Assembly (NCBI GenBank): GCA_016841955.1
Contig: JAENYE010000001.1
Coordinates: forward strand, 446,025-510,024
Source of the DNA: Methanobacteriota archaeon
GTDB taxonomy: Archaea > Halobacteriota > Methanomicrobia > Methanomicrobiales > Methanoculleaceae
Length of the DNA: 64,000 nucleotides
Direction: 5' to 3'
The translations under genes and the position numbers were made by a program. Below, one piece after another: positions 7,438-41,031 of this stretch (position 1 is its first letter; every line of letters starts with the position of its first letter). The notes below the pieces were generated by a model that was not told the DNA's origin, did not search any database, and saw only the letters and a list, made by a program, of their open reading frames with translations.

Positions 7438-8292
7438 CTAGTACGTCCCGCCGCAGCCGCAGGTGCAGCCCGCCGGTTTCCTGGCGCCGACCCTGATGCT
7501 CACGATACCCTCGCGGAGCGATCTTCTCTCGTCCTCATCGAGGGAGACGCCTTCGAGGATACCGGCAAGAGCCGGCTCGCTCACGATATGCTCGAGCGGG
7601 AAGACCGTCTCCCCCTGGACCGTGATCTCCGTAAAGCCCGCATCGGCGATATAGCCGAGGTACTCCGCCTTCGCCAGCGCTCCCGATACACAGCTGCTGT
7701 AGAGGAGCCCCGAGTCTCGGATGGAGGCCGGGAGAGGCGCCGCCAGGACGATGTCGGAGACCATGAGCCTGCCGCCGGGGCGGAGGGCCCGGAACGCCTC
7801 TGCAAACACCTGCTGTTTATCGGGGGAGAGGTTGATGACGCAGTTTGAGAGGATCACGTCGACCGAGTCGTCCGCCACCGGCAGGTGCTCGATCTCGCCG
7901 AGACGGAACTCCACGTTCTTGCGGCCGCCCTTTTTTGCGTTCTCCCGCGCCTTATCAAGCATCTCGGGCGTCATGTCGACGCCGATGACGCGGCCCGTCG
8001 GGCCGACCCGCTCCGCCGCAAGGAAGCAGTCGAACCCTCCCCCCGATCCCAGGTCAAGGACGACATCGCCTTCCTGGAGAGAGGCAAGAGCTACGGGGTT
8101 GCCGCACCCGAGCCCCATGTTCGCGCCCTCCGGCGCCTGTTCGAGGTCTTGCTCCGAGTAGCCGAGACCGATGCTCACCGATTCGACCGTCCTGCCGGTG
8201 CTGCAGCACCCTGTGCCGCACCCGCACCCGTCCTGCCGGGCCACCTGCCCGTACGCACTCCGTACCTGTTTGTGAATATCTTTTTCCTTCAT
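7438..8292 (-). CDS. arsM: Arsenite S-adenosylmethionine methyltransferase
   Basis: 284 residues. A Rossmann methyltransferase core carries the SAM-binding VLDLGSGGGFD motif near residue 78 and GVDMTPEML after it. The three cysteine sites expected of ArsM are visible: an N-terminal cluster (CGCGTGCC, about residues 23-30), the Cys of SNCVINL (about 151) and the Cys of SSCVSGAL (about 200). ArsM methylates trivalent arsenic in the cytoplasm to volatile or excretable forms. The C-terminus ends in another Cys-rich tail (CTCGCGG). The gene lies 15 bp downstream of the AbrB-like gene, and the pair is probably transcribed together from a promoter near the palindrome at 8620-8644. Confidence 0.92.
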   Translation of the reverse strand: MKEKDIHKQVRSAYGQVARQDGCGCGTGCCSTGRTVESVSIGLGYSEQDLEQAPEGANMGLGCGNPVALASLQEGDVVLDLGSGGGFDCFLAAERVGPTGRVIGVDMTPEMLDKARENAKKGGRKNVEFRLGEIEHLPVADDSVDVILSNCVINLSPDKQQVFAEAFRALRPGGRLMVSDIVLAAPLPASIRDSGLLYSSCVSGALAKAEYLGYIADAGFTEITVQGETVFPLEHIVSEPALAGILEGVSLDEDERRSLREGIVSIRVGARKPAGCTCGCGGTY

Positions 8293-8307
8293 CGTAAGAC
8301 CCTCCGG

Positions 8308-8586
8308 TCAGTCATGAGAGAACTCCTCCGCCTTGGGAGAGAGCAGCGCCGTCACCATGCCGTTGAAACAGCTCGCCTTGATCAGCGTGATGCAGCAGAC
8401 GTCTCCTTCCTTCTCCCAGAAGACGACCGCAAGCCGGTCGCCGGGAGCGATCCCCGCCCGCTCGCGGATATCTTTCGGGAGCACCACCTGCCCCCGTGCG
8501 TCGACGCTCACGACCGCTTCGATCGTGTAGGCTCCGGAACAGGAGGGACTCCGCTCATCTCTCGGGGCATCTTCCATACGACTCAC
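8308..8586 (-). CDS. AbrB/SpoVT-like small protein (HgcAB-associated type)
   Basis: 92 residues. The core VVSVDARGQVVLPKDIRERAG is the swapped-hairpin AbrB/MazE/SpoVT fold, followed by LAVVFWEKEGDVCCITLIKA. The Cys in the N-terminal SPSCSG, the CC pair and a further Cys in ASCFNG match the small AbrB-fold proteins often annotated as HgcAB-associated, although no hgcA or hgcB gene is present. Location directly before arsM suggests a metal- or arsenic-linked role, possibly a thiol-based sensor or regulator, but this is inference. Two starts are possible, at 8586 and at 8577 (MEDAPRD); the longer form is given. Confidence 0.7.
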   Translation of the reverse strand: MSRMEDAPRDERSPSCSGAYTIEAVVSVDARGQVVLPKDIRERAGIAPGDRLAVVFWEKEGDVCCITLIKASCFNGMVTALLSPKAEEFSHD

Positions 8587-34690: not shown

Positions 34691-35812
34691 TCACCCCCCA
34701 AGCGCCCGCATGAACCGCTCCCGGATCTCGGCCGGGGCGAGCGGGATGTTCGGGACCGGTGCGTTCCCGGGCGCGAGGACGACGTGGATGAAGTTCGGGC
34801 CCCGTCCCCGGTTCTCCCAGGCGTCCGCGAGCTCCTCCTCGTCCTGCACCTTGCAGGTCTTTTTGATCCCGGCGGCGAGGGCGAGGAGTTCCATGTCCAC
34901 CAGACCGGAGGCCGGGGTAGGCTGGTTCCCGGTGCTCCCGAAGGCCCCGTTGTCCAGGCAGACGATCGTGAGGTTCTCCGGGGCTTCCGCCGCCACCACC
35001 GGGAGGACGGCGGTCCCGAGCAGGCTCCCGTCGCCGTCGAGGACGACGACGTCCTTATCCGTCGCGAGCGAAAGCCCGAGGCCGATCGGCGTCGCCTGGG
35101 TGTAACTCCCGAGCATGTAGAAGTTCAGGTCCCGGTCTCGGGCCGCGTAGAGTTCCTTTGAGGGGACACCGATGTTCGCGACGACCGCCTCGCCGTCGAG
35201 GACGGCGGCGATCGCGCGGATCGCGTCGTTCCGGGTCATCACCGGGTCGCGGAACGTCCGCCGGTAGTCCAGCGCCGACTCCCGGGCCCGGGCCGGGAAG
35301 ACCCGTTCCGGCAGGCAGGCCTCATCCGCCCCCTCCCAGAACGAGGGGAGGATCAGCCCCACGTGCGGCCGCATGGAATCGTAGGCGTCGCGGACAACCG
35401 CGTCGATCAGTTCTTCGTCCTCGGGACCGCGGATGACGGTGCAGGGGATCCCGAGCGCCGCGAGCACGTCCGGGACCGCCCGGTTGAACGGCACCTGGGC
35501 CGGGATCGCCTCCCGGTAGACGCCCCGCCAGCTCGCGAGGACGGGGAGGGGGAGGCCGAAGGTGACGGTGAGCGACATGATGGCGTTCAGGGAGTTGCCG
35601 AGCCCCGAACTCTGCATATGCAGCACCGATCGCGCCCCGGCCATCGCGAGCCCGGCGCAGATCCCGACGCCGTCCTCCTCCCGGGTGAGGTTGACCGAGC
35701 GGAACCGCTCCGGGATGAGGGCGCAGAGGTCCTGCGTCCGGTCGCAGGGGAGCGATGCCACGACATCGACCCCGAGAGCGGAGAGGCGGTCGAGGACGCA
35801 GCCTTCACGCAC
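34691..35812 (-). CDS. comDE: Sulfopyruvate decarboxylase, fused alpha and beta subunits
   Basis: 373 residues from the GTG at 35812, which overlaps the end of the cysteate synthase gene by 8 bp. The N-terminal half is the ComD-like thiamine diphosphate half-domain (ASLPCDRTQDL, LTREEDGVGICAGLAMAG). The C-terminal half is ComE-like with the TPP and Mg motif GDGSLLGTAVLP followed by LDNGAFGSTGNQPT. It decarboxylates sulfopyruvate to sulfoacetaldehyde in coenzyme M synthesis. In some methanogens the halves are separate genes; here they are fused. It is the last gene of a six-gene minus-strand run. Confidence 0.92.
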   Translation of the reverse strand: MREGCVLDRLSALGVDVVASLPCDRTQDLCALIPERFRSVNLTREEDGVGICAGLAMAGARSVLHMQSSGLGNSLNAIMSLTVTFGLPLPVLASWRGVYREAIPAQVPFNRAVPDVLAALGIPCTVIRGPEDEELIDAVVRDAYDSMRPHVGLILPSFWEGADEACLPERVFPARARESALDYRRTFRDPVMTRNDAIRAIAAVLDGEAVVANIGVPSKELYAARDRDLNFYMLGSYTQATPIGLGLSLATDKDVVVLDGDGSLLGTAVLPVVAAEAPENLTIVCLDNGAFGSTGNQPTPASGLVDMELLALAAGIKKTCKVQDEEELADAWENRGRGPNFIHVVLAPGNAPVPNIPLAPAEIRERFMRALGG

Positions 35813-37100
35813 GGGCAGCCACCTCCGCCTGCTCCGCGAGCCACGCCGCGACCTCCTGCCGGAGGTTCCCGTCAAAGGCCGCACCGGCCGCTACGCGGAG
35901 GAAAGGCTCGACCAAGTAGCGGTCGAGGTCCTCGGCCGCACGCTCGTAGCCCCCACCGGTCACGTTCAGGAGCACCCGCTTCTCCGGGTCGACGAACCCC
36001 TCCTCCACCGCCCGGGCGAGCGACGCCACGGCGACGGCGGCGGCCGGGTCGAGGTCGATCTCCTCGGTCTCCGCAAAAAGCCTCCCGGCGCTCCGGGCGT
36101 CCTCGTTTGCGACGGCATACATCCTCCCGCCCGAGGCCGCGAGCGCGTCCCGGACCCCGCCCCGGATCCCCCAGGGGGGATGGCGGTTGGTGAGGACGTC
36201 GGCGTAGACCCGGGCGATCGAGGCCTCCGCGTCGGGCATGTCCTCGGCCGGGACGATCACGCCCCTCCCTGCCTCCCAGGCCCGGACCATCGGGACGAAG
36301 GGGAGGTTCTGGGAGAGGTGGAGTTCCGGGAGGCGGGACCCGAACCGCCCGTCGGCGACCAGCCGCCCGGCCGCCTCCCACGCGGCGATCCCCCCGGTCC
36401 CGCTCCCGACCGCCTGGAAGTAGTAGTCGGGAAGCCGGCCGGCGGCAAGCGTCCCGTCCAGCACCACCGTCCCCATCCCGTCCCGGCGGGCGACGTTCTT
36501 CGCCCCGCCCTCCGGAACGATCCCGTGGAGGGAGCAGACCTCCCTCCCGAACGTTATGGAGTCGGAGTAGTCCCCGTCGACCGTGATGAGGCAGACGTTT
36601 GCCGTCGGGATGGTCGTCCAGAGCCGGCCGGCGGCCGCCGTCGGGACCACCACCACGACCGGGGCCCCGGTCAGGCCCGAGATCTGGCAGAACGCCCGGC
36701 CGGTGTTCCCCGCCGACGAGACCTGGAGGACACCGGCCCCTTTCTCCCGGAGGCGGAGGACCGTCGGTTGCGCCTCGAGCTCCTTGAAGGAGCAGGTCTC
36801 CATCCCCCCGCCCCGTTCGGGCCAGTAGCCCGAGAAAGTGACGGTGAGGTTTGAGAGACCGAGTTCCCGGGCGAGACCAACGCTCTCGTAGGAGACCGGG
36901 CCGGCATCGAGGGGGAGGTGGCCCTCGACCGGGAGCCAGTCCTTGTAGCGGAAGATCCCGGGGAGATTCCGGGGGGTGAGCCGGCGCTCCGCGTAGACCG
37001 TCCGGAGCAGGGCGTCGCACCCCGACGGGCAGTCGAGTGTGTAATGGTCCGGGAAGGACCGGCCGCACCCCGGGCACCGGAGGAGGTACTTCTCCCTCAC
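35805..37100 (-). CDS. Cysteate synthase (PLP enzyme, threonine-synthase-like)
   Basis: 431 residues from the GTG at 37100, overlapping the preceding stop in a GTGA junction; the much longer open frame upstream is shadow. The N-terminus has a zinc-like pair, LRCPGCGRSFPDH and a later Cys in DCPSGC, as in archaeal threonine synthases. The PLP lysine is likely in CSFKELEAQP (about residue 103), and the PLP-phosphate loop is SSAGNTGRAF. QAVGSGTGGIAAWEA is the Gly-rich loop. Methanosarcinales and Methanomicrobiales make L-cysteate from phosphoserine and sulfite with this enzyme; transamination then yields sulfopyruvate for ComDE next door. Confidence 0.88.
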   Translation of the reverse strand: MREKYLLRCPGCGRSFPDHYTLDCPSGCDALLRTVYAERRLTPRNLPGIFRYKDWLPVEGHLPLDAGPVSYESVGLARELGLSNLTVTFSGYWPERGGGMETCSFKELEAQPTVLRLREKGAGVLQVSSAGNTGRAFCQISGLTGAPVVVVVPTAAAGRLWTTIPTANVCLITVDGDYSDSITFGREVCSLHGIVPEGGAKNVARRDGMGTVVLDGTLAAGRLPDYYFQAVGSGTGGIAAWEAAGRLVADGRFGSRLPELHLSQNLPFVPMVRAWEAGRGVIVPAEDMPDAEASIARVYADVLTNRHPPWGIRGGVRDALAASGGRMYAVANEDARSAGRLFAETEEIDLDPAAAVAVASLARAVEEGFVDPEKRVLLNVTGGGYERAAEDLDRYLVEPFLRVAAGAAFDGNLRQEVAAWLAEQAEVAARA

Positions 37101-38338
37101 CGCATCGCGCCCCCGGTGAAGGTGAACCGGCGGTCGAGGATCATCTCTTTCAGGTCCCGGCAGAGGTCCTCGGCGAGCGTCCGGCCCGACTGGCGGAGGG
37201 TGATCGGGACCTTCCGCCCCCGGACCCGGATCGAGCCTTCCCCCGCCTCGAGGGCGTTGTTCGGGCAGACGGCGAGACAGGCGGTGCAGGCGAGGCAACG
37301 GTCCCGGTCGATACCGGTCTCGCGGGAGAACGCGCCGGTGGGGCAGACCGCGGCCGCAACGCAGGCCGAGCACTCCCCGCACCACTCGGGATAGTAAGTC
37401 ACCTCCCGGTCGGGCTGCTGCCAGACGTCGGCGTAGGTCCCTTCCCCGAGAACGGCACGGGTGTTGATGTCGGCAACCGGGAGGGGGATGCACTCGTCGA
37501 GGACGCGGAGGGCCGCGACCTGCCGGTCGTCGAGGACGGGGATCGCGACGCCGAGGCTCGTGATGCACTCCGGCCCGGCGGAGGTCTTGAACCCGCCCAT
37601 GTAGCGGGGCTGCATCCCGGCCATATCGGCGATGAGCGTGAGGTTCGGCCGGGCCGGGGTGCTCCGGGTCCCTTCGCCGGTCACGAGCCCTACCGAGCCG
37701 TTCAGGAGGACCGGTGTCCCATTCCGGATCGCGAGCCTTGCGGGATCGTTCTCGAGCGGGTTGATCTCGCCGCACCCGCTGACCGAGACCTCCCGGCAGG
37801 GTCCCTGCAGCCCCTCGATGGAGAAGATCGTCTTCACCCGGGTCGGCCGGGTGTTTACGTAGGCGGTGTAGTTCTTGTAGGCGCTCCGGGTGGTGAAGAG
37901 CCGGGCGTAGGAGAAGTCGTCGAGCGTCACCCGCGCCTCGACCGACCGGTCGGCGGCCTCCACCACCACCTCGATCTCGCGGCCCTCGACGATGTCGCGG
38001 AAGAGGTGGCCGCCCCCGTAGCCGGCCCCGGCGTGGGCGGTTCCCGAGACGATCAGGTCCAGGAGCCCGAGGCGCTCGTTCGGGCAGGGGCCGGGCATGC
38101 AGGGGACCCCGTTCGCCCAGGCTCGCTCCGCGCGTTCGAAGGTCCCCGGCTCCGCCACCGGCACCGAGAGGATCGCCGCGGTCCCCGACATCACCCCGCA
38201 GGTCCCGGTGGTGACCACGTCCACGTCCGCGGCCGAAACTCCCGCACCCTCGCGGACGAGGCGCTTGAACTCCGCAGCGGTGTAGACGATCGCCGAACCG
38301 TTCCGGATCTTCTCGTCGATCTCTGTTATCGTCTTCAT
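37097..38338 (-). CDS. DUF39/COG1900 protein with two 4Fe-4S clusters (methanogenesis marker 16 type)
   Basis: 413 residues. Residues 1-325 are the DUF39 domain (AIVYTAAEFKRLV, TTGTCGVMSGTAAILSV, AHAGAGYGGGHLF, IFSIEGLQGPCREVSVSGCGEINPLEND). Residues 335-385 are a bacterial-ferredoxin-type double cluster: CGECSACVAAAVCPTGA and CLACTACLAVCPNNAL. COG1900 relatives convert an aldehyde to a thiol, as in homocysteine synthesis from aspartate semialdehyde. In a coenzyme M locus the analogous reaction would be sulfoacetaldehyde to 2-mercaptoethanesulfonate, the final step; this is inference from family and context. It overlaps both neighbours by 4 bp. Confidence 0.85.
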   Translation of the reverse strand: MKTITEIDEKIRNGSAIVYTAAEFKRLVREGAGVSAADVDVVTTGTCGVMSGTAAILSVPVAEPGTFERAERAWANGVPCMPGPCPNERLGLLDLIVSGTAHAGAGYGGGHLFRDIVEGREIEVVVEAADRSVEARVTLDDFSYARLFTTRSAYKNYTAYVNTRPTRVKTIFSIEGLQGPCREVSVSGCGEINPLENDPARLAIRNGTPVLLNGSVGLVTGEGTRSTPARPNLTLIADMAGMQPRYMGGFKTSAGPECITSLGVAIPVLDDRQVAALRVLDECIPLPVADINTRAVLGEGTYADVWQQPDREVTYYPEWCGECSACVAAAVCPTGAFSRETGIDRDRCLACTACLAVCPNNALEAGEGSIRVRGRKVPITLRQSGRTLAEDLCRDLKEMILDRRFTFTGGAMR

Positions 38339-38955
38339 AGCAACCTGATATCCTCCACCCGCACATGGAGACCGCCGGATTGCGCGAGAACCATATTCAC
38401 GACACCCGTATGCCCGAGGTTCATCATGCAGTAGCCGGGCAGGAACCGCTGCCGCATCCCGAAGACCGGCTCGCGCCGCACCGTCCGGGCAATTCCCTCG
38501 AAACCGACGATGTGGTAGGCCTCTACGTCCTTAAACCCTCCGCCACGCGAGGCCTGCGGGCCGACGACCAGACAGGTGAGGAGGCCGCTTGTCCGGCTTG
38601 CATGGAGGACCGAGAGGACGTGCTGGACCGGGCAGCCCGCACCGGCCGGCCTCCCGACGACGATATCCCCGGCCGCTATCTCCCACTTCTCCACCAGGTC
38701 CGGGCGGAAGGGGAGGACGATCTTCCGGGCCGAGACCTCGCCGGGCAGGGGATCGAGGATGAAGTCGTACTCGCCGCCGAGGATGTCCCGGCCGGTATGA
38801 AGGGCCTCGCCCTCGAACCGGGAGGCTGCGGTCCCGGCGGGGTAGAAGACGCAGTCCAAAAGGTCCTTTTCTCCCCGCCGGATCCGTTCGAGGAAGGCCT
38901 CGCAGGTCGGGGCGCCGCAGGCCCCGCAGTCCTTCCCCGGAGGGGTCCACGCCAC
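38335..38955 (-). CDS. 4Fe-4S-binding protein of the coenzyme M locus
   Basis: 206 residues from a GTG start at 38955, the first start after the previous stop at 38960. The N-terminal motif PGKDCGACGAPTCEAFLERI followed by a Cys near residue 32 (LLDCVFY) is the four-cysteine FeS domain (C-x2-C-x4-C-x17-C type) seen in Rnf, ACS and related proteins. The rest is a beta-rich domain (DIVVGRPAGAGCPVQHVLSV, TCLVVGPQASRGGGF) without clear homology that I can name. It overlaps the DUF39 gene by 4 bp, so it may donate electrons or supply sulfur to that enzyme. Confidence 0.72.
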   Translation of the reverse strand: MAWTPPGKDCGACGAPTCEAFLERIRRGEKDLLDCVFYPAGTAASRFEGEALHTGRDILGGEYDFILDPLPGEVSARKIVLPFRPDLVEKWEIAAGDIVVGRPAGAGCPVQHVLSVLHASRTSGLLTCLVVGPQASRGGGFKDVEAYHIVGFEGIARTVRREPVFGMRQRFLPGYCMMNLGHTGVVNMVLAQSGGLHVRVEDIRLL

Positions 38956-38959
38956 CGGA

Positions 38960-39667
38960 TCAGTCCCCCCGGAAGAGGTAGTCGGCTCCCTCGAGCCTCC
39001 GGACGACCCCGAAGTGGTGCTGCCACCCGATCTCCGTCTTCCCGATGCAGACGGTGCAGACCCCGAGCGGCGGCGCACCCCGGAGGACGATTGTATCGGG
39101 ATCGGTTATCGGCGGGTAGCCCTCGATTGCCCGGAGGAGGTAGCGCATCCCGGTACCCTGGACAGCGTTCGTCTCCACGATATCGAGGTCGGGGTTCACC
39201 TCCCGGATCCGCTCCCGGAAGACCTCCTTCTCGGCCTGGGAGACGAGGTCGATCCGGGTCACGACCGCGATATCGGCGAGGGCAAGCATCGCGGCCATCT
39301 TCAGGGGCGTATTCGTGCCCGATACGGCGGAGAGGACGACGACCCCGAGCCCCTGCGTCGTGTAGGGAGAGCAGCGCAGGCAGAGCCCGGCACTCTCGAC
39401 CAGGAGGAGGTCGGCCCCCTCCTCTTCGGCCCAGGCGATAGCGTCCCGCATCACCATCACCCCGGCATGGTCCGGGCAGAGGTCGCCGGAGCAGACCTTC
39501 CGCGTCGAGATCGAAAACTCGGCCGCGAGCTCCTCGTCCTCGAACGCCCTGACGACGTCGATCTTTAAGTAGGCGATCCGGTGTCGGTCGCAGAGGGAGC
39601 GGACGGTCTGCCGCACGACGGCGGTCTTCCCGGCCGACGGCGGACCGGCGACGACAGCGAGCCTCAT
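38960..39667 (-). CDS. HypB/CobW-like P-loop GTPase with cysteine motifs
   Basis: 235 residues. The P-loop GPPSAGKTAVVRQ is at residue 8, a switch-like DLLLVESAG near residue 90, and the base-recognition motif VVTRIDL near 150, a layout close to HypB and UreG metallochaperone GTPases. Three cysteine pairs are notable: KVCSGDLCPDH, GLCLRCSPY and GVCTVCIGK, plus QHHFG, all able to bind metal or an Fe-S cluster. A maturation role, for example loading metal or Fe-S onto the DUF39 or Fe-S partner, is plausible but unproven. It overlaps the ABC gene by 4 bp. Confidence 0.78.
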   Translation of the reverse strand: MRLAVVAGPPSAGKTAVVRQTVRSLCDRHRIAYLKIDVVRAFEDEELAAEFSISTRKVCSGDLCPDHAGVMVMRDAIAWAEEEGADLLLVESAGLCLRCSPYTTQGLGVVVLSAVSGTNTPLKMAAMLALADIAVVTRIDLVSQAEKEVFRERIREVNPDLDIVETNAVQGTGMRYLLRAIEGYPPITDPDTIVLRGAPPLGVCTVCIGKTEIGWQHHFGVVRRLEGADYLFRGD

Positions 39668-40443
39668 GCCCCGACCGGTCCCGTGATCAGGTCGCCCGCC
39701 CGGATCTGCTCGCGCATCCGGCGGAGGATGCCGTCGAGGCGGAGGGCCTCCCTGAGGGCTTCGTTTTCGCGATTTCTGGGCTCGATGACCCGCTCGACCG
39801 CCCCGTCCCGCATGACGATCCGCCGGGCGGAGAGGAGGGAGACCAGGGGGTCGTGCGTGACGAAGATGACCGCCTTCCCCCCGGCCCGGAGCACCTCGAT
39901 CACCCGTTCCTTGAAGATCCCGGCGTTCTCCACCTCGTCGAGGAGGAGGACCGGTGCTGCCGCGACGAGGACCGCATCCGCCACCAGGAGCGACCGGGTC
40001 TGCCCGCCGGAGAGCGCGGTCATCCGGGCGCAGGATCGGATCTCCTCGCCCGTGAACTCGTTCGCGAGGTCGATCGTCCGGCCGACGATGCCGTCGTCGG
40101 CGATCTTCCGGGACCGGACGTGCATCGCAAGGAACTCCGCGACCGTGAGGTCGGCGAGGCACCGGGTGTTCTGGGTGATCAGGGCGACGGGCTTGTGCGC
40201 CGGGTCGCGGACGACCTCTTCGGGAGGGTAGGCGCCGTTGACGAGGACCGTGCGCCCCGTCGCGGTGTCGTTCCGGGCGAAGACCTCGATGTCGTTGATG
40301 AGGGCGCTCTTCCCCGAGCCGGTGGGGCCGACGATGGATATCGTGTCGCCCGGGCGGATGGTGATTGCGTCGAACCGCTCCGGCTCGCCGTGCCGACTCC
40401 GGCCGGGGAGGATCGTGATCTCCCGGATGGATGAGGAGTCCAT
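39664..40443 (-). CDS. Soluble ABC-type ATPase of the coenzyme M locus
   Basis: 259 residues with all ABC motifs: Walker A GPTGSGKSALI (about residue 39), the Q-loop ALITQNTRCLADLT, signature LSGGQTRSLLVA (about 143), Walker B VLLLDEVE and the H-loop VTHDPLV. There is only one nucleotide-binding domain, no membrane helix and no permease gene nearby, so transport is not obvious. Stand-alone ATPases of this kind in methanogens include the component A2 factor for methyl-coenzyme M reductase, but that protein has two ABC domains. This is the first gene of the minus-strand locus, divergent from the HTH regulator. Confidence 0.85.
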   Translation of the reverse strand: MDSSSIREITILPGRSRHGEPERFDAITIRPGDTISIVGPTGSGKSALINDIEVFARNDTATGRTVLVNGAYPPEEVVRDPAHKPVALITQNTRCLADLTVAEFLAMHVRSRKIADDGIVGRTIDLANEFTGEEIRSCARMTALSGGQTRSLLVADAVLVAAAPVLLLDEVENAGIFKERVIEVLRAGGKAVIFVTHDPLVSLLSARRIVMRDGAVERVIEPRNRENEALREALRLDGILRRMREQIRAGDLITGPVGA

Positions 40444-40512
40444 AGGGGAGGGTTGTCATACGGAGTGATAAGAGTTGTTCTCTGTAGCGCCATACTTCAC
40501 CATAACAGGAAA

Positions 40513-40540
40513 ATTTTATCCCAAATATAATACTATAGTA
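40513..40540. promoter_or_regulatory. Promoter region between the coenzyme M locus and the HTH gene
   Basis: An AT-rich stretch contains TTTTATCC and AAATATAATACTATAG just before the ATG at 40546, so the HTH gene probably has a TATA box and a very short leader. The 102-bp divergent gap to 40443 must also hold the promoter of the six-gene minus-strand locus. Confidence 0.5.
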
Positions 40541-40545
40541 GAGCA

Positions 40546-41031
40546 ATGCTGTCGAGAAAGATTTTCGAGACCGACTTTGCCGGGGCGCTCCTGGAGGAAC
40601 TTGCCCGGCAGGACATGAGCATCCGGGACCTCGCGGATCGGGCCGGGATCCCGCCCGCCACCCTCTACAAACTTACGTCGGGAAAGGCGGACCCGCGCCT
40701 CTCGACCGTCAGGCGGATCGTCAATGTCCTCGAGCCCCGGGAGAAGAGCTTCATCGCGGTGATCGCGGCGCGGTTCCTGCTCGACGACCTCGACAACCGC
40801 GACCTTCCCATCGGCGAGCGGAAGTTCCGGATCCGGGGTTACTCGGCGGACTCCCTCGACGAGTGCATCATCGCCGCGGTGCGGGCGGACAAGGAGGGGG
40901 CGCTCGGGATCATCTGCGCCCCGATCCTCGCGCCGATCGTGGAGAAGATCGTCGACTGCCCGGTGGCGATCATCAAGCCGCAGCAGCAGACGCTGATCGA
41001 GGCGATCGAGACGATAGCAAAGAGGGTTTAG
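40546..41031 (+). CDS. XRE-type HTH transcriptional regulator divergent to the coenzyme M locus
   Basis: 161 residues. Residues 18-65 are a Cro/XRE-type helix-turn-helix (LARQDMSIRDLADRAGIPPA and LYKLTSGKADPRLSTVRRI). The C-terminal domain (residues 95-161) has RGYSADSLDECIIAAVRADK, GIICAPILAPIVEKIVDCPVAIIKP and a closing helix, a compact alpha/beta ligand-binding domain of a kind found in archaeal regulators. Divergent placement suggests it controls the locus and itself. Two Cys (in ECII and DCPV) could sense redox or sulfur status, but that is speculation. Confidence 0.8.
   Translation: MLSRKIFETDFAGALLEELARQDMSIRDLADRAGIPPATLYKLTSGKADPRLSTVRRIVNVLEPREKSFIAVIAARFLLDDLDNRDLPIGERKFRIRGYSADSLDECIIAAVRADKEGALGIICAPILAPIVEKIVDCPVAIIKPQQQTLIEAIETIAKRV

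Follow-up and report, generated by a model that had tools for sequence, protein, structure and literature searches.

Gene content and order of the coenzyme M locus

The window analyzed here is a stretch of 64,000 nucleotides from an archaeon of the Methanoculleaceae (GenBank assembly GCA_016841955.1, contig JAENYE010000001.1, positions 446,025 to 510,024 of the forward strand). It carries a coenzyme M (CoM) biosynthesis operon of the phosphoserine type, which begins with genes for a soluble ABC-type ATPase, a HypB-like GTPase and an Fe-S protein, referred to below as the trio. Comparison with other genomes suggests that linkage of the trio tracks the sulfonation enzymes of CoM synthesis, cysteate synthase (CS) here and ComA elsewhere, rather than the CoM synthase ComF. 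The seven genes listed in a first-pass annotation of this sequence are all present in place and matched the expected families, which were assigned with Pfam profiles and with NCBIfam profiles that have curated cut-offs:

39664..40443, minus strand: soluble ABC-type ATPase, 259 aa (PF00005, 51 bits; Walker A GPTGSGKS; signature LSGGQ)
38960..39667, minus strand: HypB/UreG-like SIMIBI GTPase, 235 aa (PF02492, 50.6 bits; TIGR00073 HypB, 67.3 bits)
38335..38955, minus strand: Fe-S protein, 206 aa, GTG start (PF04060, 44.4 bits)
37097..38338, minus strand: ComF (methanogenesis marker 16), 413 aa (TIGR03287, 500.9 bits, above the cut-off of 363.95; PF01837, 317.6 bits)
35805..37100, minus strand: CS, GTG start (TIGR03844, 654.3 bits, above the cut-off of 324.9)
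34691..35812, minus strand: comDE, fused sulfopyruvate decarboxylase alpha/beta, GTG start (TIGR03845, 211.3 bits, and TIGR03846, 249.2 bits, above the cut-offs of 147.95 and 221.5)
40546..41031, plus strand: divergent XRE-type regulator, 161 aa (PF01381, 36.5 bits)

The operon runs from 40443 down to 34691 in the order ABC, GTPase, Fe-S, ComF, CS, comDE, so that the ABC gene is first both in the operon and in the trio. Overlaps of 4 to 8 bp had been reported throughout; these are present at the ABC/GTPase (4 bp, 39664-39667), Fe-S/ComF (4 bp), ComF/CS (4 bp) and CS/comDE (8 bp) junctions, but a 4-nt gap separates the GTPase stop at 38960 from the Fe-S GTG start at 38955. This string of trio and CoM genes is not a chance arrangement, as it recurs across many other genomes.

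ComF combines a COG1900/HcyBio domain (PF01837) with two ferredoxin-type cluster motifs (Fer4 match at 343-364). The first-pass annotation rightly singled out this DUF39-ferredoxin protein as a candidate for the last step of CoM synthesis; genetics in Methanosarcina acetivorans had already identified the family, methanogenesis marker 16, as the CoM synthase ComF (PMC12068725). By analogy with that relative, the window ComF would make CoM from sulfoacetaldehyde. The M. acetivorans locus MA3296-MA3299 (PMC12068725, PMC12713407) encodes the same CS, ComDE and ComF enzymes. However, its reported gene list does not include the trio with which the window operon starts, and the window locus differs from it in having ComF on the same strand, between the Fe-S and CS genes. 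The recurrence of three uncharacterized genes with this locus, also pointed out in the first-pass annotation, is likewise on record: a figure legend (PMC12068725, Fig 2) describes frequent colocalization of CoM genes in methanogens with genes for an ATPase, a Ni-binding GTPase and a COG2000 Fe-S protein, and no role is proposed for these three. By description these are the same three genes as the trio, and we take the window Fe-S protein to be the COG2000 protein. Thus, the function of ComF and this colocalization are known already, and a function for the trio is unpublished.

Linkage of the trio to CS, ComA and ComF

The trio behaves as a unit. When the Fe-S protein was used to search 60 Halobacteriota genomes, every Fe-S match adjoined a GTPase match. 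In nearly all of the loci read that have an adjacent Fe-S gene, the ABC gene comes before the GTPase gene. Separately, ANME-2 and Methanosarcinales genomes contain GTPase homologues with no adjacent Fe-S gene detected (L165-L170), and these form their own clade in the GTPase tree.

Methanobacteriota make CoM with ComA in place of CS. The trio is present in 16 of 97 Methanobacteriota genomes, invariably (16/16) in the arrangement comA-ABC-GTPase-FeS, with neither comDE nor comF within about 8 kb (two of the stretches were shorter, at contig ends). In the loci measured, the comA and ABC reading frames either overlap or have 2 bp between them, and the identity of ComA is supported by TIGR03849 (333 bits; cut-off 280). 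A Methanothermococcus locus (L181) has the same arrangement with a slightly larger comA/ABC gap. In Methanothermobacter, comA (MTH1674) lies far from comB, comC and comDE by published gene numbers (PMC3087415). CS converts L-phosphoserine and sulfite to cysteate; ComA and CS belong to separate families and act on unlike carbon substrates, and the reaction common to both is addition of sulfite to a three-carbon acid (PMC3087415, PMC12713407). The simplest factor common to the two enzymes is sulfite. Our best explanation, which we hold tentatively and at slightly less than an even chance, is that the trio is a nucleoside triphosphate (NTP)-driven module for the sulfonation step catalyzed by CS here and by ComA elsewhere, probably acting through supply or handling of sulfite, for which the linkage is the ground.

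Among 39 Methanomicrobia genomes, presence of the trio agrees with presence of CS in 38 (both in 20, trio only in 1, CS only in 0, neither in 18) and with presence of comF in 33 (both in 16, trio only in 5, comF only in 1, neither in 17). The trio and comF were found apart in both directions. Four genomes (G007, G047, G052, and G053; loci L106, L113, L127, and L128) have a trio, CS and comDE operon without comF, and no comF of the marker 16 type was found genome-wide in any of them. Conversely, G041 encodes ComF and lacks both the trio and CS. Methanotrichaceae have an operon of the order CS-ABC-GTPase-FeS (L116, L117, and L125), with neither comDE nor comF in the stretches read, and their comF is either about 1 Mb distant or on a different contig. 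Moreover, in 9 of the 10 trio genomes in which the trio is near just one of CS and comF, the neighbor is CS.

These results bear on the proposal, made for the DUF39 protein in the first-pass annotation, that the trio matures ComF or feeds electrons to it, and likewise on delivery of sulfur to ComF. The trio shares an operon with comF in the window, the two lie no more than about 10 kb apart in 21 of the 27 trio+ comF+ genomes surveyed, and ComF itself carries Fe-S clusters. Yet service to ComF is improbable in view of the two-way separation, of the comA-linked loci of Methanobacteriota, all 16 without comF nearby, and of 28 comF+ genomes of 80 without the trio. Many of the genomes lacking the trio encode CS as well as ComF, including the Methanosarcina-like G147 and G150 (identity inferred from gene order), whose gene order is that of M. 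acetivorans MA3296-MA3299, where ComF was shown to work. Furthermore, ComF of Methanocaldococcus jannaschii was reported to produce CoM in Escherichia coli (PMC12068725). In summary, the gene-order comparison by which the first-pass annotation would have called the link accidental has a mixed outcome: the trio is linked to com genes, but it is separable from comF, absent from many comF+ genomes and joined to comA in Methanobacteriota; the assignment to ComF was not supported.

If the trio instead had no CoM role and were carried as a passenger in the same transcript, its frequent absence from CoM-making genomes and the existence of extra, unlinked copies would be readily understood. Linkage to two unrelated sulfonation enzymes, in differing gene orders and with tight spacing, and codistribution with CS in Methanomicrobia make this very improbable.

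One relative of the window's organism has a rearranged locus (G001, L124). A reading frame at 7870-8517 on the minus strand joins the N-terminal half of the GTPase in frame to the ComDE C-terminus, and the Fe-S gene, comF, CS and most of comDE are gone. This looks like a single internal deletion that ended CoM synthesis.

Trio proteins and related systems

The GTPase has conserved Cys and His residues in three motifs, C64-P-D-H67, C96-x-R-C99 and C202-x-x-C205 (numbered as in the first row of alignment A1), all of which are invariant in 14 aligned GTPases, including the related type that lacks an Fe-S partner. The earlier description of a HypB-like protein was borne out; its three extra cysteine pairs were not, since the Cys of KVC in the window protein is replaced in most close relatives, which have KVY. 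The nearest relatives in the PDB are HypB and UreG, which share with it the SIMIBI G-domain and conserved Cys residues that could bind metal. However, the window GTPase scores below the HypB cut-off (TIGR00073, 67.3 versus 121.2 bits), the CPDH, CxRC and C-terminal CxxC motifs are its own, and in the loci read the trio GTPases had no hydrogenase or urease genes as neighbors. Judging from its conserved Cys and His residues, the protein may bind nickel. Matches of the GTPase profile to RecA were set aside as apparent artefacts of long repeat chains.

GTPase and ABC genes also occur as a second kind of pair, which lacks the Fe-S gene and belongs to a different and mostly bacterial system, here called type B. 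Its operons (L189-L225, for example L189, 8360-10315), which are widespread in bacteria, encode a solute-binding protein, a HypB-like GTPase and a soluble ABC ATPase. The solute-binding protein looks cytosolic and contains PF13343, in some cases with DUF1858. Many type B operons include a HypA-like zinc ribbon of 80 aa, and some lie near a hybrid cluster protein (Hcp) gene or Rrf2/Crp regulators. In a GTPase tree whose root is uncertain, since the HypB outgroup sits on a long branch, the Fe-S-linked GTPases fall into several lineages (Methanomicrobiales with Methanocella-like genomes; Methanosarcinales; Bacteroidetes with Methanobacteriota and Methanothermococcus), and the bacterial systems linked to a solute-binding protein form one clade nested among them. 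CS linkage and ComA linkage fall in different branches of this tree.

The trio itself also occurs in Bacteroidetes, without CoM genes nearby, which is incompatible with maturation of MCR or F430 as its sole role. A CysP-like permease gene adjoins the trio in several of these genomes (L174, L175, L183, and L306), with scores below the curated cut-off for true CysP, and some have a NarL-type two-component system beside the trio. In a Methanocella-like genome (L114, 6965-8128, minus strand), a NifS-type cysteine desulfurase gene lies between the GTPase and Fe-S genes. An apparent trio-CS link in Bacteroidetes, attractive in a first count of 6/12, was dropped, as the excess was not significant against the Bacteroidales background. 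About 30% of the Bacteroidales sample encode a close relative of archaeal CS, most scoring over 300 bits, perhaps for synthesis of sulfonolipids.

This wider occurrence, together with the kinship of the GTPase to HypB and UreG, its invariant Cys/His motifs and the frequent pairing of type B GTPase/ABC genes with a HypA-like zinc ribbon, some near Hcp, would suit a general metal-center maturation system. The GTPase and ABC ATPase would then load metal into a metalloprotein of sulfur metabolism, be it the Fe-S protein or another, and CoM genes would be frequent, not unique, clients. Alone, this explanation leaves the adjacency to CS and ComA unaccounted for, and the informative neighbors are sulfur genes. 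To our knowledge, neither CS nor ComA is an Fe-S or nickel enzyme. We therefore consider metal-center maturation somewhat unlikely.

Invariant Cys residues of the Fe-S protein number six, not the four first described: C10, C13, C18 and C35 lie in an N-terminal PF04060 [4Fe-4S] domain, and C108 and C176 in a C-terminal domain. The four cluster Cys residues, together with R102, C108, H112, C176 and H182 of the C-terminal domain, are all invariant in 36 aligned proteins. PF04060 gives the protein a likeness to CFeSP and RnfB, but the match is confined to this N-terminal part, and the protein has no corrinoid or membrane part and differs from both in its C-terminal domain, for which no relative of known structure was detected. 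AlphaFold predicts that the C-terminal domain is mainly beta and mostly at good confidence (overall pLDDT 82.6).

As the first-pass annotation had it, the ABC ATPase is a single-domain protein without a permease gene in the operon. Of 131 NCBIfam matches, the best 25 did not include SufC, to which no direct comparison was made; SufB/D was not found among the seven locus genes. The ABC domain, and the SsuA-like and CysP-like genes that adjoin some loci, recall transport or sensing, in which the ATPase would drive a separately encoded sulfite, sulfate or sulfonate permease, and the GTPase and Fe-S protein would act as regulators. Given that the window operon has no permease gene and that none recurs beside the trio in the related methanogen loci, we rate this as decidedly improbable.

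Divergent regulator and proposed role of the trio

The XRE regulator, which had been correctly noted as divergent, has an N-terminal helix-turn-helix and a C-terminal domain of no assigned family, and its gene is divergent at many Methanomicrobia loci. It belongs with the CoM genes, because at L135 it adjoins comF-cs-comDE in the absence of the trio. One candidate operator lies between the regulator and the operon:

40500..40513, minus strand: candidate operator TTTTCCTGTTATGG, pattern TT[CA]CT-N3to5-GG

Of 12 related intergenic regions, 11 contain this pattern (shuffled sequences give an expectation of 0.24), in most cases 34-36 nt away from the start of the regulator; the pattern was set after inspection, and the 12 sequences are related to one another, so that its role as an operator is suggestive only. 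In M. acetivorans, cs and comDE transcripts rise on CoM starvation (PMC12068725), which makes a CoM-responsive regulator plausible, and the XRE protein is a candidate for it.

In the working that we propose for the trio as a sulfonation module, the GTPase would use its conserved Cys/His motifs to load a metal ion into the C-terminal Cys2His2 set of the Fe-S protein, whose N-terminal [4Fe-4S] cluster would serve as an electron relay. The Fe-S protein would be the sulfur-handling part of the trio. The ABC ATPase may provide energy or gating that keeps release of free sulfite low, sulfite being an inhibitor of methanogenesis (PMC3448663). After the sulfonation served by the trio, ComF would perform its known last step. 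In a bolder version, the trio would be an unrecognized NTP-driven machine for both making and delivering sulfite, used by the two CoM pathways and shared with some bacteria. Its catalyst would be the COG2000 protein, with the invariant Cys2His2 set in a C-terminal domain of no detected known fold. This version, which we regard as unlikely, would account for how strict anaerobes living on sulfide come by sulfite.

Several observations weigh against a sulfonation module. The trio is missing from 20 of 52 CS+ genomes, from all 8 comA+ Halobacteriota sampled and from 81 of 97 Methanobacteriota, and the presence and absence counts take no account of shared ancestry. Neither a Methanopyri trio (L188) nor the extra copies at L107, L109 and L112 lie beside CS or comA. 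Among trio+ Bacteroidetes, 7/14 encode an archaeal-type CS, which is not clearly more than the background of about 30% in 247 Bacteroidales (p ~0.13). None of the trio proteins resembles a known sulfur-oxidizing enzyme, and Foldseek returned no PDB match with E ≤ 0.001 for the Fe-S protein, and so no homologue for its C-terminal domain. Finally, gene linkage does not amount to function, and sulfite chemistry is not proven by any feature of the sequences. Because the trio is absent from many CS+ and comA+ genomes, other sources of sulfite must exist, or the role of the trio is conditional; and because many genomes that make CoM lack it and it is present in Bacteroidetes, it is neither essential nor CoM-specific. 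The genes around the extra copies at L107, L109 and L112 encode large surface-type proteins, with no CoM gene nearby, and no ABC gene was detected at L109.

What is new here is that the trio does not track ComF and follows CS and ComA instead, which resolves the colocalization described previously (PMC12068725) and extends the trio to Bacteroidetes. That the trio serves ComF is a natural assumption but probably a wrong one, and the linkage data correct it. Methane formation requires CoM, whose sulfonate sulfur derives from sulfite. The source of sulfite for CoM is described as unsettled (PMC3448663), as is its source in situ (PMC6286981); a sulfite reductase run in reverse was proposed earlier, and candidates for it are missing from some methanogens (PMC3448663). 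Placed beside the sulfite-adding enzyme of both CoM pathways, the trio offers concrete candidate genes for this question and, if our explanation is true, would provide a lead on where methanogens obtain their sulfite.

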